Assembly: GCF_900167905.1 (NCBI RefSeq)
Contig: NZ_FUYZ01000003.1
Coordinates: 62,001 to 126,000 of the forward strand
Reading direction: 5' to 3'
Source of the DNA: Soonwooa buanensis
GTDB taxonomy: Bacteria > Bacteroidota > Bacteroidia > Flavobacteriales > Weeksellaceae
DNA: 64,000 nucleotides
In this document: positions 8,686 through 54,747 of the stretch, in pieces
How the letters are laid out: each line of letters begins with the position of its first letter
Position numbering within the stretch: position 1 is the stretch's first letter
Notes under the pieces: generated by a model
Told to the model about the DNA's origin: nothing
What the model saw: the letters and a program-made list of their open reading frames with translations, nothing else
Database searches by the model: none
Program-made: the position numbers and the translations under genes

Positions 8686-8690
8686 AATAA

Positions 8691-8717
8691 AACCCGAAGC
8701 AAAGCTTCGGGTTTTTC
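8691..8717. terminator. bidirectional terminator between the small secreted protein and hemE
   Basis: AACCCGAAGC/GCTTCGGGTT hairpin with T tracts on both sides. It serves the plus gene ending at 8685 and hemE ending at 8722 on the minus strand. Confidence 0.88.
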
Positions 8718-8721
8718 TATT

Positions 8722-9747
8722 TTATGCTTTCCATTCTACAACAGCACGGATAAATGCTTCAGCGTTTTCTACCGGAATATTTGGTAGAATACCATGGCCA
8801 AGGTTGGCGATGTATTTATCTTTCCCAAAACGGTCAATCATCTCATGCACCATTTTTCTGATAACATCTGGCGACGAGTGTAGTCTTGCAGGATCGAAGT
8901 TACCTTGTAAAGTGATATTATTTTTTGTTAATTGTCTTGCGATTTCTGGTGTTATCGTCCAGTCAACGCCCAAAGCAGAAGCTTTAGATTTTGACATTTC
9001 TTCCAACGCAAACCAACATCCTTTTCCGAAAACTACAACTGGAGAAACCAAGCTAAGCTCTTCAACGATTTGGTTGATGTATTGCCAAGAGAATTCTTGA
9101 TAATCTGCTGGAGAAAGCATTCCGCCCCAAGAATCAAAAATCTGAACCGCAGAAACACCTTTTTCAACTTTACGTTTTAGGTAAGCAATGGTTGTATCTG
9201 TAATCTTTTGAAGTAAAGAATGTGCAGCTTCTGGATTTGTAAAACAAAATGATTTTGCAATATCAAAAGCCTTAGAACCTTTTCCTTCCACACAATAACA
9301 AAGAATCGTCCACGGACTTCCAGCAAATCCAATTAACGGAATCTCATTATCAAGTTTTTGTAAAGTCAATTCGATGGCATCAAAAACGTAACCTAAAGTA
9401 TCATCAACATCCGGAACTTCGATCGCATCAACTTGCTCTTTAGTTCTGATAGGGTTGTCTAGCCAAGGACCAACAGATTCTTTCATTTTGAAATCGATAC
9501 CCATCGCTTGTGGAACTACCAAAATGTCCGAAAACAAAATCGCAGCATCCAACGGAAATCTTCTGATAGGTTGCACGGTGATTTCCGCAGCCAATTCTGG
9601 CGTTTGACAACGTGTGAAAAAATCGTACTGATTGCGCAATTCGATAAATTCTGGAAGATATCTTCCTGCTTGACGCATCATCCACACTGGTGGTCTTTCA
9701 ACAATTTCGCCTTTCAGAGCTCTTAGATATAAATCGTTTTTAATCAT
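8722..9747 (-). CDS. hemE: uroporphyrinogen decarboxylase
   Basis: 341 residues, full length. It decarboxylates the four acetate side chains of uroporphyrinogen III to give coproporphyrinogen III. The N-terminal signature [17 protein letters not shown] holds the substrate-binding Arg residues. [12 protein letters not shown] is the second family signature, and IFDSWGG is a conserved active-site region. It is the last gene of the hemA-hemC-hemD-hemE run, 5 bases after hemD, and ends at a strong terminator. Confidence 0.97.
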
Positions 9748-19235: not shown

Positions 19236-19326
19236 CCGAGGACCTGCTTTCCGCTGCAATCTTTTTGGTTCGGCATAGCCTCTCACCAAAAAGGATTTCC
19301 GCTACAATCACGGCTACGGATTTCGG
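19236..19326 (+). repeat. intergenic hairpin element, family A copy 2
   Basis: Left box CTGCTTTCCGCT, then the stem ATCTTTTTGGT/ACCAAAAAGGAT closing the loop TCGGCATAGCCTCTC, then a right box with CAATCACGGCTA. The loop is identical to that of the copy at 35051, while the stem sequence differs with pairing kept. It lies after the VanX-like gene. Confidence 0.6.
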
Positions 19327-27952: not shown

Positions 27953-27990
27953 AAAGAGAACCAATTAATTGGTTCTCTTTTTTTTCTTTT
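27953..27990. terminator. convergent terminator, perfect 28-nt palindrome
   Basis: AAAGAGAACCAATT followed by its exact reverse complement (27953-27980), then a T tract on the plus strand and an A tract before it. It includes the stop codon of the convergent TPR gene and can serve both directions. Confidence 0.85.
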
Positions 27991-28483
27991 TGGTAGCTTT
28001 CTTTTTCGGCATTTTTGACTTAACAAATTTTTCTCGATTTTCCAAAAACTCGATCATATCCTTATTGTACGAAAATTTTTTCGCTTCCTTAATTGTTTTT
28101 AAAGCTTCATCGTAACGCTCCAGCTTTTCAAAATATACCGATTTCCAGTACAAAATATTCGACTTATCAATACCTTTTGTTTTAAAACTGAAATCCAACA
28201 ATTTCAAAGCTTCCTCATAATCCTCATTGTTTAAAAGGCAAGAAACATAATATTTCGGAATCGTTACATTCCCGACATCACACGCAAGAGCTTCCTGGAA
28301 ATAGGTTTTCGCCTGCTCATAATTTTTCAACTGCTCACTATAAATTCGTCCCATCAAGCAAAGCGCATCCGAATCTTCAGGATCGTAGGACAACGCGTAA
28401 TTCAAAGCTTCCAAGCAATCCGCCAAATTGTACGGATAGCAATCCAAAGCTTCAAAATAATATTTGTTTTTAGTTAAGTTCAT
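27965..28483 (-). CDS. tetratricopeptide repeat protein with basic tail
   Basis: 172 residues. Four to five helical repeats of TPR type are visible (CLEALNYALSYDPEDSDAL, YEQAKTYFQEALACD, YEEALKLLDFSFKTKG, YDEALKTIKEAKKF). A Lys-rich tail (KKKATKKKKKR) ends inside the terminator palindrome. There is no signal peptide. TPR arrays mediate protein contacts; the partner is unknown. The tail could bind nucleic acid, which is inference. rtcB lies upstream on the same strand, but 308 bases and two repeat elements separate them. Confidence 0.75.
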   Translation of the reverse strand: MNLTKNKYYFEALDCYPYNLADCLEALNYALSYDPEDSDALCLMGRIYSEQLKNYEQAKTYFQEALACDVGNVTIPKYYVSCLLNNEDYEEALKLLDFSFKTKGIDKSNILYWKSVYFEKLERYDEALKTIKEAKKFSYNKDMIEFLENREKFVKSKMPKKKATKKKKKRTN

Positions 28484-28514
28484 TTTTTTTTTACATTATT
28501 AAGTTTGTTTTTTA

Positions 28515-28607
28515 GGAGCTGTTTCCCGCTTTCCGCACTCGCTTTTGCAAGCCTTCCAAATCCACTGCATTTGCAAAGAGCTCAAACAATTGCTACAATC
28601 GGGGCTA
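28515..28607 (+). repeat. intergenic hairpin element, family A copy 3
   Basis: Left box GAGCTGTTTCCCGCTTTCCG, central stem CTTTTGCAA/TTTGCAAAG, then AAGAGCTCAAACA and right box CAATCGGGGCTA. End boxes match copy 4 at 30581. Confidence 0.65.
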
Positions 28608-28660
28608 AAAATGCCTCCCTTCTAATAAAATTATGACTTTCAAAAAGTCAGTTTCGTTAA

Positions 28661-28748
28661 CGTCCCTTCGAGTAGGTTTTGAAAAAACCGTATCGAGAAG
28701 TCCTTTTAAAAAAAGTTCTCGATACGCTTCGCTACTCGAACTGACGAA
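28661..28748. repeat. family C palindromic repeat, copy 1
   Basis: CCCTTCGAGTAG and CGTATCGAGAAG on the left pair with TTCTCGATACG and CTACTCGAA on the right, giving a long hairpin of ~88 bases. A second copy at 30358 and a right-arm copy at 30516 flank the other side of rtcB. Confidence 0.7.
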
Positions 28749-28791
28749 ATGCGAAATACCAGTAACCAACAACCAAAAACTGTCAACCAAT

Positions 28792-30183
28792 TTATTTATC
28801 CATTCTCACAATCCTCGGTTGAAAAGTTCCCAAGATGTCCACCAAATCACTTTGTGCGTTCATCACTTCATTGATGTCTTTGTACGCCATTGGTGCTTCC
28901 TCGGCATTTCCGCCCATTAGAGTCACTTTTTTTAGCTTCAACTCTTTTTTAATATCGCTTTGCGTGAAAAGTTGTCGGCATTCACCTCTCGAATAAGCTC
29001 TTCCTGCACCATGCGATGCCGAACTTAGCGATTCGGGATTTCCTTTTCCTCGAACGATAAAACCTTTCGCCGTCATCGAACCTGGAATCATTCCCAATTC
29101 GTTTTCGCTGGCTGGTGTGGCTCCTTTTCGATGGACGATTACTTCTTTTCCGTTGTGGATTTCTTTCCAAGCGAAATTGTGATGGTTTTCGATTTTGGCT
29201 TTTACACGACCGCCAACAGCTTTCACCAATCGACGATGAATATCATCATGACAAGCCGAAGCGTAATCTCCTGCGAGATTCATGGCTGTCCAATATTCCA
29301 ATCCCATGTGCGTACTCAAATCCAGCCAAGCAAAATTCTGAGCTTCCTTTGGCAACGGACATTGTTCTGTCGCCACTCTCGAATAATATTGCGCAATTTC
29401 AGCGCCTAAACCTCGAGAACCGCTGTGCGAAAGAATCCCCAAATATTTTCCTTTCGGAAGTCCGATTTGTGAATCTTCTTCCACAATTTCCACTTCGCCG
29501 AATTCTACAAAGTGATTTCCACCGCCCGAACTTCCCATTTGTTTGATGGCTTTTCCTTTTAATCTTTTCAAAATCGGAATCAAATCAAACGTATCACGTT
29601 CGAAAATTTCGTGGTCGACGTGTGATTTGTGCGTTTCATACATTCCGAATTTGGTATGTTCTGCCAAAGCTTTTTCAAACTTGTCTTTGGCACCATCTAG
29701 ATATGAAATCGGCGTATCCAAAATGCTTAAGCTCATCCTGCAACCAATATCCATCCCCACGCCGTACGGAATTACCGCATTTTCTACCGCCAAAACACCA
29801 CCGATTGGTAAACCGTAACCGCTGTGTGCATCGGGCATCAAAGCACCACCAACCGAAATTGGAAGTTTTAATGCCGTGTACAATTGGTTTTTCGCTTCCT
29901 CGGAAATGTTGTTTCCAAAGATTTGAAAGTCGGCTCTTTGTGCGTTGAGCATTCGTTTTTCGTTTTTTGTAGAAAGCAGTAAAGCTTCCGCAATTTGTCC
30001 GAACTGCAAATCTTTCTCGAAGTTTTGCGGGTTTTGTAAAATCTCTTTCAAGATGGATTTTACGTGATGTATATTTTTGGTGGCAAAATTCCTTTTCATG
30101 ACTTCCAGAGCGATGTTGACGCTTTGGTTGTTGGGATAGCCGAGTTTTAATATATCTTTTCCTTTTAGTTTTAAATTTCCCAT
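28792..30183 (-). CDS. rtcB: RtcB family RNA ligase
   Basis: 463 residues. RtcB joins 2',3'-cyclic phosphate (or 3'-phosphate) and 5'-OH RNA ends using GTP and Mn2+. Metal and guanylate residues are visible: MPDAHSGYG (His120), DIGCR with metal-binding Cys148, GGGNHF (about 221-225), HSGSRG, and ASHGAGR with the guanylylated His near 391. The DIGCR variant replaces the more common DIGCG. No rtcA or archease gene is adjacent. It is flanked on both sides by palindromic repeats. Confidence 0.93.
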   Translation of the reverse strand: MGNLKLKGKDILKLGYPNNQSVNIALEVMKRNFATKNIHHVKSILKEILQNPQNFEKDLQFGQIAEALLLSTKNEKRMLNAQRADFQIFGNNISEEAKNQLYTALKLPISVGGALMPDAHSGYGLPIGGVLAVENAVIPYGVGMDIGCRMSLSILDTPISYLDGAKDKFEKALAEHTKFGMYETHKSHVDHEIFERDTFDLIPILKRLKGKAIKQMGSSGGGNHFVEFGEVEIVEEDSQIGLPKGKYLGILSHSGSRGLGAEIAQYYSRVATEQCPLPKEAQNFAWLDLSTHMGLEYWTAMNLAGDYASACHDDIHRRLVKAVGGRVKAKIENHHNFAWKEIHNGKEVIVHRKGATPASENELGMIPGSMTAKGFIVRGKGNPESLSSASHGAGRAYSRGECRQLFTQSDIKKELKLKKVTLMGGNAEEAPMAYKDINEVMNAQSDLVDILGTFQPRIVRMDK

Positions 30184-30580: not shown

Positions 30581-30723
30581 AGCCCCGATTGATTCTGACT
30601 TATATATTTTTATAGTTGAATCATCGAAACTCGTTCCTCGTTTTGAAGCGGCATCCTTTTTTTGTTTGGGCTTGAAAAAAGCGTTGGCAAAAAAAGATAC
30701 AGCGGAAAGCGGGAAACAGCTTC
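30581..30723 (-). repeat. intergenic hairpin element, family A copy 4 (long)
   Basis: On the minus strand it has left box GCTGTTTCCCGCTTTCCGC, a central stem ATCTTTTTTTG/CAAAAAAAGGAT and right box CAATCGGGGCTA, as in copy 3, but with an extra ~45 bases before the right box. Confidence 0.6.
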
Positions 30724-30857: not shown

Positions 30858-31026
30858 GAAAAACCCGAAATCTTGCGACTTCGGGTTTTGATATTTCATT
30901 GTACTGTTCTTCTAAGAATGTACCAAACCACGAAGCCTCGCCTTTGCAAAAGGCAATCCTACTGTTGAATGTTGATTGAATCTGAACATTTTTGCTTCGT
31001 TTTTTTGTTGGTTAAACTTGATTTTC
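30858..31026 (-). ncRNA. candidate structured small RNA with own promoter and terminator
   Basis: Read on the minus strand, initiation is expected near 31026 from the box at 31032-31039. The RNA can form a closing stem (ACGAAGC at 31000-30994 with GCTTCGT at 30936-30930, extended by TGGTT/AACCA pairing). This stem encloses hairpin 1 (30990-30968, AATGTT/AACATT) and hairpin 2 (30954-30940, GCCTTT/AAAGGC). Hairpin 3 follows (30923-30901, GTAC and TTCTT arms), and the RNA ends in a strong intrinsic terminator (30889-30861). A 25-codon reading frame (30989-30912) inside it has no ribosome-binding site. It does not look like tRNA, tmRNA or RNase P RNA; a 6S-type or lineage-specific regulatory RNA is possible. 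Confidence 0.65.
30861..30889 (-). terminator. intrinsic terminator of the candidate small RNA
   Basis: AAACCCGAA and TTCGGGTTT form a 9-bp stem around a 10-base loop; the minus-strand T tract TTTTTCTTT follows. No protein gene ends nearby on the minus strand other than the one at 31073. Confidence 0.85.
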
Positions 31027-31031
31027 AGGTG

Positions 31032-31061
31032 CAAATATAGAATAAATTTTTAAAACGCAAA
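31032..31061 (-). promoter_or_regulatory. promoter of the candidate small RNA
   Basis: The minus strand has TTTG (31061-31058), 18 bases, then TATATTTG (31039-31032). This is the best two-part match to the Bacteroidota -33/-7 consensus in the window, and it reads into a region without a protein gene. Confidence 0.7.
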
Positions 31062-52891: not shown

Positions 52892-54166
52892 TTGAAGATT
52901 AAGACTTATTTTATCAATATTCTGAAACTTGTTTTTCCATCAAAGAAATGGGAATGGATTGTTTTTGCTGTTGCACTAAGTTGTTATTCGAGTTTTGCCT
53001 ATTTTATTGCTAAGAATTTCAGGATCGTTTTTGATGACCGCATTCCGTGGGATGCCTATTTTAGTTTTGACAATCGCGCAATTGTCATGACTGGTGGCGG
53101 TTTTGAAAGACATCCGCTTTCCAATTATTTTTTTGATTGGATCCGCGAATTTGCGCTTTGGATTTCTAATGGAAAAATGAATGCTGACTTTAGAATTGTT
53201 TTGGCGCTTTGTTCAAGTTTTATAGTAAGTTTGTCAATCGTTCAGGTTTTTAAGTATTTACAAAACATTATTAAACTTCCACTTTGGTTAAGTCTTTTGA
53301 TTGTTATATTTTTTGGACTTTTCACCACTAATATTTTATTGTCTTTTACACCTGAAAATTATACTTATACTTTGTTTTTGCTTTGTTTGTTCAATTATTA
53401 TGTAGCGAAACAATATCAAGCTGACAAGACTTTGTCTTTTGGAGCTGTTACATTTTTTGGTGTTATAGTTGGTGGATTGACGATTACGAATATTGTTAAA
53501 GTTTATTTACCAATGCTTTTTCAACCCAAATTATATTGGAACTGGAAAAAAATCGGTCTCGAAATTTCTAAAGTATTAGTTTCTGTGGCGGTTTTTGTGC
53601 TTTTGTTTTTAAATAGAATTAATTTTAACATTCAGAATTTCTTTAGTAAAACTGAAGAACAGTACGATAAGTTTTCGAATCCGAAGGTGACGCCACTTTG
53701 GGATATGATTTATTCTTGGTTTTTTGGAGGTAATATGTTGTTCCCGTCTTTCGTTTTGCGAGATTATCACAACAAAAAAGGCTTCGAATACAAGGCTATT
53801 TTTATGGATGTTTATTCCAGTTTTTGGTCTTATCTGGTTGTTGGTTTGATTGTAGCATTCGTGATTTGGAGTTTTGTTAAAAATTTTAAAAATCGATTGG
53901 TACAGATTTTATTTTGGTCATTGTTTATCGATGTTGTGATACACTGTGTTCTGAAATTTGGTTTGCATACATCTTACATTTATGGTGGACATTTTGTATT
54001 TGTGTTTCCATTGCTTATTGGATGGTTGTTTTTTGCATACCGAAAAAATACTGTTTTAATAAGTAGTTTAACAACAAGTTTAGTTTTGATAACGGTTTAT
54101 CTAGGCATTAATAATTTCGTTAGACTCGATGAGTTTATTGAATTTTTAAATGTTTATTACAAATAA
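52892..54166 (+). CDS. polytopic membrane protein of unknown function
   Basis: 424 residues from TTG at 52892, supported by a promoter box 15 bases upstream. About ten hydrophobic helices are visible. Between helices 1 and 2 a long polar loop has NFRIVFDDRIPWDAYFSFDN and GGFERHPLSNYFFDW, with paired Asp residues reminiscent of GT-C glycosyltransferases. That is only a structural hint. A Bacteroidota DUF6080-type family is possible. The gene stands alone between terminators. Confidence 0.7.
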   Translation: MKIKTYFINILKLVFPSKKWEWIVFAVALSCYSSFAYFIAKNFRIVFDDRIPWDAYFSFDNRAIVMTGGGFERHPLSNYFFDWIREFALWISNGKMNADFRIVLALCSSFIVSLSIVQVFKYLQNIIKLPLWLSLLIVIFFGLFTTNILLSFTPENYTYTLFLLCLFNYYVAKQYQADKTLSFGAVTFFGVIVGGLTITNIVKVYLPMLFQPKLYWNWKKIGLEISKVLVSVAVFVLLFLNRINFNIQNFFSKTEEQYDKFSNPKVTPLWDMIYSWFFGGNMLFPSFVLRDYHNKKGFEYKAIFMDVYSSFWSYLVVGLIVAFVIWSFVKNFKNRLVQILFWSLFIDVVIHCVLKFGLHTSYIYGGHFVFVFPLLIGWLFFAYRKNTVLISSLTTSLVLITVYLGINNFVRLDEFIEFLNVYYK

Positions 54167-54167
54167 A

Positions 54168-54199
54168 AAAGTCCGAAGTTTTTGCTTCGGACTTTTATT
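54168..54199. terminator. bidirectional terminator between the membrane protein and the SPOR gene
   Basis: AAAGTCCGAAG/CTTCGGACTTT with a 6-base loop and T tracts on both sides. Confidence 0.88.
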
Positions 54200-54216
54200 T
54201 TGTATTAAGTTATTTT

Positions 54217-54747
54217 TTATTTTGCTTCTACGCAGAAGATTCTGTATTGGACAGCTGTTGCGGATCCGTAAGTAGCTTTAACACGTTTTAAATCGCTAGA
54301 TGCACTTTGTTTATTAAAATAACTTCCAGCTAATATTTTATAATTTGGACGAAGAGAAGCATCAATTTCAACTTTTAAAGAAGGGAAATTTTTTCTAAAA
54401 TCAGCGCCAATTGTGCGAGCTTCTTCATTGCTTTTAACAACCGCCACTTGGATTTTGTAACCCATAATTTTTGGATTTTGTCGGCAAATCTCGGCTTGAG
54501 TTAACTCTCTACTTGGTACCAAAATTTTTGTAGGTTGCTTTATCGTTTCGGAATCGGAAGAGTATGATCCACCTTTTGGACGTGCACAAGATTCTTCTTG
54601 TTTGCTAATAAGATTGTCAATTCTTGAATCCATAGTCATGCTAACAGGCGTTCCAGAAATGGTGTCTGTTTTAACAACGAGTTGAGCAGTAGCCTTATAT
54701 GAAATTACAAAGATGAAAATAAGTAGTGCTTTCGAAAGGATTTTCAT
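54217..54747 (-). CDS. secreted SPOR-domain protein
   Basis: 176 residues. A signal peptide (about 1-21, ATAQ) is followed by a linker and a C-terminal SPOR domain (about 95-175: GYKIQVAVVKSNEEARTIGADF, YKILAGSYFNKQSASSDLKRV). SPOR domains bind denuded glycan strands at division sites. Two cysteines (in ESCARP and AEICRQ) frame the linker, and a third lies at FCVEAK. It is a single gene with its own -7 box and is divergent from the act operon. Confidence 0.88.
   Translation of the reverse strand: MKILSKALLIFIFVISYKATAQLVVKTDTISGTPVSMTMDSRIDNLISKQEESCARPKGGSYSSDSETIKQPTKILVPSRELTQAEICRQNPKIMGYKIQVAVVKSNEEARTIGADFRKNFPSLKVEIDASLRPNYKILAGSYFNKQSASSDLKRVKATYGSATAVQYRIFCVEAK

Follow-up and report, generated by a model that had tools for sequence, protein, structure and literature searches.

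The window analysed here is a stretch of 64,000 nucleotides from Soonwooa buanensis (contig NZ_FUYZ01000003.1, positions 62,001 to 126,000 of the forward strand). In an initial annotation, made from the sequence alone, the minus strand from 31061 to 30858 had been described as an orphan structured small RNA with promoter and terminator. The features on which our analysis is based are the following:

31032..31061, minus strand: promoter of the Bacteroidota type, TTTG-N18-TATATTTG, read from the sequence and conserved in homologs
30994..31000, minus strand: segment 1, ACGAAGC, directly ahead of the ATG of the leader; pairing partner of segment 2
30912..30989, minus strand: leader peptide ORF of 25 codons, MFRFNQHSTVGLPFAKARLRGLVHS, kept in homologs
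30940..30954, minus strand: hairpin within the leader ORF, GCCTTTTGCAAAGGC, maintained through compensatory changes
30921..30937, minus strand: segment 2, GGCTTCGTGGTTTGGTA, inside the ORF, pairs with segment 1 or 3
30877..30893, minus strand: segment 3, TATCAAAACCCGAAGTC, pairs with segment 2 (antiterminator) or 4
30859..30872, minus strand: segment 4 and T run, GATTTCGGGTTTTT, forms an intrinsic terminator with segment 3
28792..30183, minus strand: rtcB, RtcB-family RNA ligase of 463 amino acids (Pfam PF01139, E = 3.7e-81), presumed target of the attenuator
27965..28483, minus strand: TPR-repeat gene, the final operon gene in relatives

Much of the anatomy that had been proposed was borne out. 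The two-part promoter is present in the minus-strand sequence (TTTG at 31061-31058, an 18-base spacer and TATATTTG at 31039-31032), and the S. buanensis genome has a very similar box before a tRNA-Met gene. The closing stem (ACGAAGC at 31000-30994 with GCTTCGT at 30936-30930) and the GCCTTT/AAAGGC hairpin at 30954-30940, for which homologs carry compensatory changes, were found as described, and so was a strong intrinsic terminator with a T run ending near 30859, which lies between the promoter and the first gene. The proposed AATGTT/AACATT hairpin lacks conservation and is broken in many homologs; the GTAC/TTCTT hairpin exists but cannot form together with another, conserved helix that had been overlooked, in which 30937-30921 pairs with 30893-30877. 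None of 200 shuffled sequences folds as well as the leader RNA (z = -3.8). As had been stated, no tRNA or tmRNA was detected at the site, and no Rfam covariance model scored above its cut-off, either there or in the leaders taken from 20 relatives. Matches to BTnc005, Trp_leader, Yfr10 and others, far below the gathering scores and mainly confined to the 3' half and the terminator, were discarded. Some rtcB operons carry Y RNAs, and hence a link to Y RNA and Ro60 was considered for the leader.

A divergent 6S RNA, one of the original ideas, would fit the similar size, the closing stem and the strong promoter; however, the 6S-Flavo covariance model does not match at the locus, the leader is missing from many genomes of the family, and a full-length 6S-Flavo-like RNA occurs elsewhere in the genome, below the threshold (G000:C11:634093-634198, L004; 50 bits, Rfam cut-off 85). 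As this candidate probably represents the genome's true 6S RNA, the leader is unlikely to be one, and we consider the idea barely credible. Rfam Flavo-1 elements are present in the window at 19236-19319 (minus strand) and 30630-30720 (plus strand), the second of them between the leader and rtcB. With 60 matches genome-wide, Flavo-1 behaves like a dispersed repeat in S. buanensis and its position between leader and rtcB is therefore non-specific.

The leader is not an orphan, as had been claimed: homologs lie upstream of rtcB operons in two or more families. When the DNA of 320 family genomes was searched, 228 yielded matches, mostly full-length with 80-91% identity, some of them short or weak; the sister genome of the same genus gave no leader match in this search. 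Among the first 30 loci, rtcB lies downstream on the same strand in 29, and in the remaining one (G071) it is found about 1.6 kb away, again on the same strand. A first covariance model built from 37 homologs retrieved diverged copies down to 32 bits, located before rtcB even where the ligase is 55-60% identical, and a broader model yielded 31 matches outside the family (E values up to 3.2e-4), 24 of which were fetched and found to precede rtcB (21/24) or a TPR gene (3/24). Homologs are documented for two families of Flavobacteriales and for Sphingobacterium. When 80 named genomes were picked only for rtcB, a strict pattern detected the leader in 57, the genera including Flavobacterium, Aquimarina, Tenacibaculum, Polaribacter, Myroides and Sphingobacterium; the pattern misses at least one case, Chryseobacterium soli (apparently identical to the L054 contig), which carries the leader with a small deletion. 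An rtcB ortholog was present in only four of 44 genomes mostly chosen as leaderless, and all four have the leader; one of these (L095) contains a second, 50%-identical rtcB copy without an evident leader. In another genome (G244) the leader is present, the rtcB of the leader operon is absent, and the leader precedes the TPR gene. Throughout, the leader precedes rtcB or the TPR gene of the operon and shares its strand.

Several further matches deserve mention. Related leaders at three loci (L144, L146 and L148; MSLFITYQN...LRDYR) at first seemed unlinked to rtcB and precede the operon's TPR gene, which is followed by a gene for a calcineurin-like phosphoesterase in L148 and by an RtcB-family gene of another clade in L146. 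At L152 (G507) a PcfJ-like gene stands between a leader-like element and the downstream rtcB. Weak matches (L080-L084, L150, L151, L153, L154 and L156-L161) were judged to be due to chance, and two weak model matches in the window (54166-54218 and 8687-8763), which cover the terminator end alone, were likewise rejected.

The gene order in relatives is leader-rtcB-prfH-TPR, in some with an unknown ORF of 223-260 amino acids between leader and rtcB, and the genes overlap or abut; in L088 the intervening ORF overlaps the start of rtcB. The intervening proteins of about 223-260 amino acids, present in many relatives (L036, L078, L128, L142 and others), belong to no Pfam family, and other relatives hold decayed copies. 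Of 80 named loci, 71 carry prfH after rtcB (a script count irrespective of strand) and 61 carry the TPR gene after it on the same strand; the two PrfH proteins examined both pass the NCBIfam cut-off for release factor H. The window itself contains no prfH, and in the rest of the genome the only release-factor-like matches resemble prfA, prfB or arfB. A 309-nt repeat-rich stretch (28484-28791) lies alone between rtcB and the TPR gene, where relatives mostly carry prfH, and the RtcB protein of the window scores below the curated cut-off of the models for PrfH-linked RtcB families. The leader operon in relatives corresponds to a rescue system for ribosomes and RNA: a published survey describes RFH-RtcB neighbourhoods to which a TPR gene has been added, and attributes to them the rescue of ribosomes and the repair of RNA damaged by toxins (PMC6514570), and RtcB2-PrfH protects E. 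coli from cleavage of 16S rRNA by colicin E3 (PMC9223846).

RNAalifold, applied to 37 homologs, joined GGCUUCGUGGUUUGGUA, which lies within the ORF, to the terminator's 5' arm, UAUCAAAACCCGAAGUC; segment 2 therefore has the choice between segments 1 and 3, and segment 3 between segments 2 and 4. The helices 1:2 (ACGAAGC/GCTTCGT), 2:3 and 3:4 (the terminator) are mutually exclusive, such that the antiterminator precludes the terminator and a further helix precludes the antiterminator. Their mean energies are similar (-17.9, -16.7 and -17.1 kcal/mol, respectively, in 71 sequences), and for 66 of the 71 homologs no more than 1% of shuffles equal the 2:3 duplex. Covariation was seen in every helix, with 34/34 distinct tuples versus 18.4 in shuffles for the outer pair of 1:2, 34/39 versus 22.9 and 27/39 versus 19.3 for 2:3, and 39/39 versus 30.3 for 3:4; as the shuffle controls ignore relatedness, these figures are to be read as support and not as probabilities. 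Segments 2, 3 and 4 change jointly across lineages (GGU/ACC/GGU, GGC/GCC/GGC, GAC/GUC/GAC and GAU/AUC/GAU), and in most lineages segment 2 mimics the 3' arm of the terminator.

These observations bear on the proposal of a regulatory RNA, which stands insofar as the evidence supports a short structured RNA that has a promoter and a terminator of its own, and falls insofar as a stand-alone gene was meant. A trans-acting or dual-function (peptide-coding) small RNA merely encoded beside rtcB, with a terminator that is always active and an rtcB gene served by its own promoter, would agree with the complete promoter, the strong terminator, the sequence identity of 80-91% across genera and the variable distance between terminator and rtcB, which ranges from 90 to 1100 nt across loci and amounts to 670 nt in the window, where the gap contains one weak site of terminator type (30238-30221) in addition to the Flavo-1 repeat. 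Such an RNA would, however, have no need for the mimicry by segment 2, nor would it be expected to co-occur with rtcB or to precede the TPR gene where rtcB is missing; furthermore, nearly all loci lack another promoter box (TAnnTTTG) between leader and rtcB. We therefore regard an independent small RNA gene as unlikely.

The initial annotation had seen no convincing protein, a view that has to be revised, because the 25-codon ORF is among the best-conserved features of the locus. The frame from ATG at 30989 to TAG at 30912 is open and free of indels in all 50 closer homologs, with indels occurring just outside. Among 75 loci of the family, which include one genome twice, its length is 25 codons in 71, 26 codons in three and 19 codons in one. 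In other families, the ORF comprises 24-28 codons and usually terminates with Leu-Arg-x-x, an ending that is kept because CTTCG, the core of segment 2, reads as Leu-Arg. Changes in length are multiples of three, and ATG and stop codon keep fixed distances to segments 1 and 2. An ORF of 24-28 codons covers segment 2 in nearly all homologs; one genus (g3; L079 and L155) deviates, in that its ORF ends at 19 codons, just before segment 2. A joint-probability figure of 1e-20 calculated for the ORF is inflated, because the set was partly picked by ORF presence. Bacteroidota genes commonly have no Shine-Dalgarno site, and the absence of one before the leader ORF thus tells little. Codon-like conservation and stem covariation had been set against each other in the initial annotation, the former as an argument against a structured RNA; both are seen, covarying stems and a kept frame, as expected of an attenuator leader.

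The peptide itself is another matter. Pairwise differences in codons 3-12 amount to 3.31, 2.84 and 4.21 per pair at codon positions 1, 2 and 3, respectively; third positions are somewhat more variable, and the peptide sequence is therefore only weakly constrained, as in many attenuators. Residue diversity in codons 2-14 equals the random expectation (9.46 vs 9.27), and no run of codons for one amino acid of the trp/his kind is present, observations that together argue against amino-acid-specific sensing. Weak conservation of the peptide would suit an attenuator not governed by leader translation but, for instance, by binding of a small molecule, of RtcB or of the TPR protein to the leader (autoregulation), in which the ORF would be a side effect of the CTTCG-rich segment, and the three-way switch taken alone is compatible with it. 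Against this stand the indel-free frame, its changes in length by threes and the fixed distances of ATG and stop codon to segments 1 and 2, as well as the leader that precedes the TPR gene in a genome without the operon's rtcB. We rate such control by a protein or ligand as more doubtful still than an independent small RNA gene.

The anatomy of the leader, the conserved frame, the covariation in all three helices and the linkage to RNA-repair genes are established, and for an attenuator, anatomy and linkage are strongly supported. With a probability of roughly 0.8, the minus strand from 31061 to 30858 is the leader of an RNA-repair operon and acts as a translation-coupled transcription attenuator, controlling rtcB and the TPR gene in the window and rtcB-prfH-TPR in relatives. 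From the sequences we infer that the ORF is translated and that transcription reads through into rtcB, and likewise the direction of the response and the type of signal. The logic of attenuation is modelled on the trp leader. Transcription would start at the TATATTTG promoter and the 25-codon leader peptide would be translated. If the ribosome is absent, segments 1 and 2 would pair, 3:4 would form and transcription would terminate at about 165 nt, such that the operon is off and terminated RNAs of this length are to be expected. A ribosome at the stop codon, 7 nt past segment 2, would cover that segment, again allowing 3:4 and termination. A ribosome stalled within roughly the first 12 codons would hide segment 1 and leave segment 2 free to form 2:3, which would prevent 3:4 and allow read-through into rtcB. 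Since the leader has no repeated codon and no run of a single codon, and its residue diversity is close to random, generally impaired elongation is the likely signal, as may be caused by a damaged ribosome, damaged or uncharged tRNA or ribosome-targeting drugs, and damage to elongation would be of the kind that RtcB and PrfH mend. For the attenuator, the signal would be the damage itself, namely a ribosome unable to finish a 25-codon message.

The odds appear about even that the leaders constitute an attenuator family, present in Flavobacteriia and in part of the Sphingobacteriia, which responds to the stalling or damage of ribosomes rather than to the lack of a single amino acid, induces the RtcB-PrfH-TPR repair operon and originated independently of the Pseudomonas PA5471.1 leader. 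If true, a widespread unannotated leader would be explained, Flavobacteria would possess a natural reporter of translation damage, and inducers of RtcB-PrfH repair would become directly testable. In the literature searched we found no account of the induction of RNA repair in the Bacteroidota, the phylum of S. buanensis.

With the trp, his and leu attenuators the leader shares a leader ORF, segments 1-4, exclusive pairings and a 3:4 terminator; those attenuators target amino-acid synthesis and contain a codon run for a single amino acid, whereas the leader described here would target RNA repair, has no such run and, unlike them, carries segment 1 before the start codon. A flavobacterial transcriptome study reports leader-peptide attenuation before amino-acid operons, its main text being silent on rtcB (PMC9723704). 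The RtcB2-PrfH(-TPR) modules combine the very genes that make up the operon of the window's relatives; the window itself has no prfH, and the searched text of the two papers does not describe the leader found here (PMC6514570, PMC9223846). The best-studied switch for RNA repair is the RtcR/sigma-54 activator, which senses broken RNA ends (PMC7790460, PMC12606134); in E. coli and Salmonella, rtcBA is under RtcR (PMC7790460) and induced by damage to translation (PMC5175333). Control of rtcB upon damage to the translation apparatus would be common to both systems, but RtcR is a sigma-54 activator protein that senses RNA ends, and a leader attenuator is not part of that system. A literature search for rtcB and leader peptides, with most subscription journals outside its scope, returned a Pseudomonas case as the only relevant one, and a leader before rtcB in Bacteroidota provisionally seems undescribed. 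In P. aeruginosa, the 13-codon leader PA5471.1 controls armZ (PA5471), an RtcB-like gene about 250 bp downstream that has linkage to a release-factor gene; ribosome stalling on this leader, caused by ribosome-targeting drugs or a defect in tRNA CCA addition, is proposed to block a 3:4 terminator (PMC3516279, PMC12057347, PMC13041342). A short leader peptide upstream of an RtcB-family gene and an attenuator layout are common to both, a likeness on paper, and a putative leader attenuator before a release-factor-linked RtcB-family gene is also found in relatives of the window, the window being without prfH. PA5471.1 occurs in another phylum, its 13-codon peptide has no evident similarity to the 25-codon peptide described here, and ArmZ is an anti-repressor of an efflux pump, whereas the presumed target here is the rtcB(-prfH)-TPR operon.
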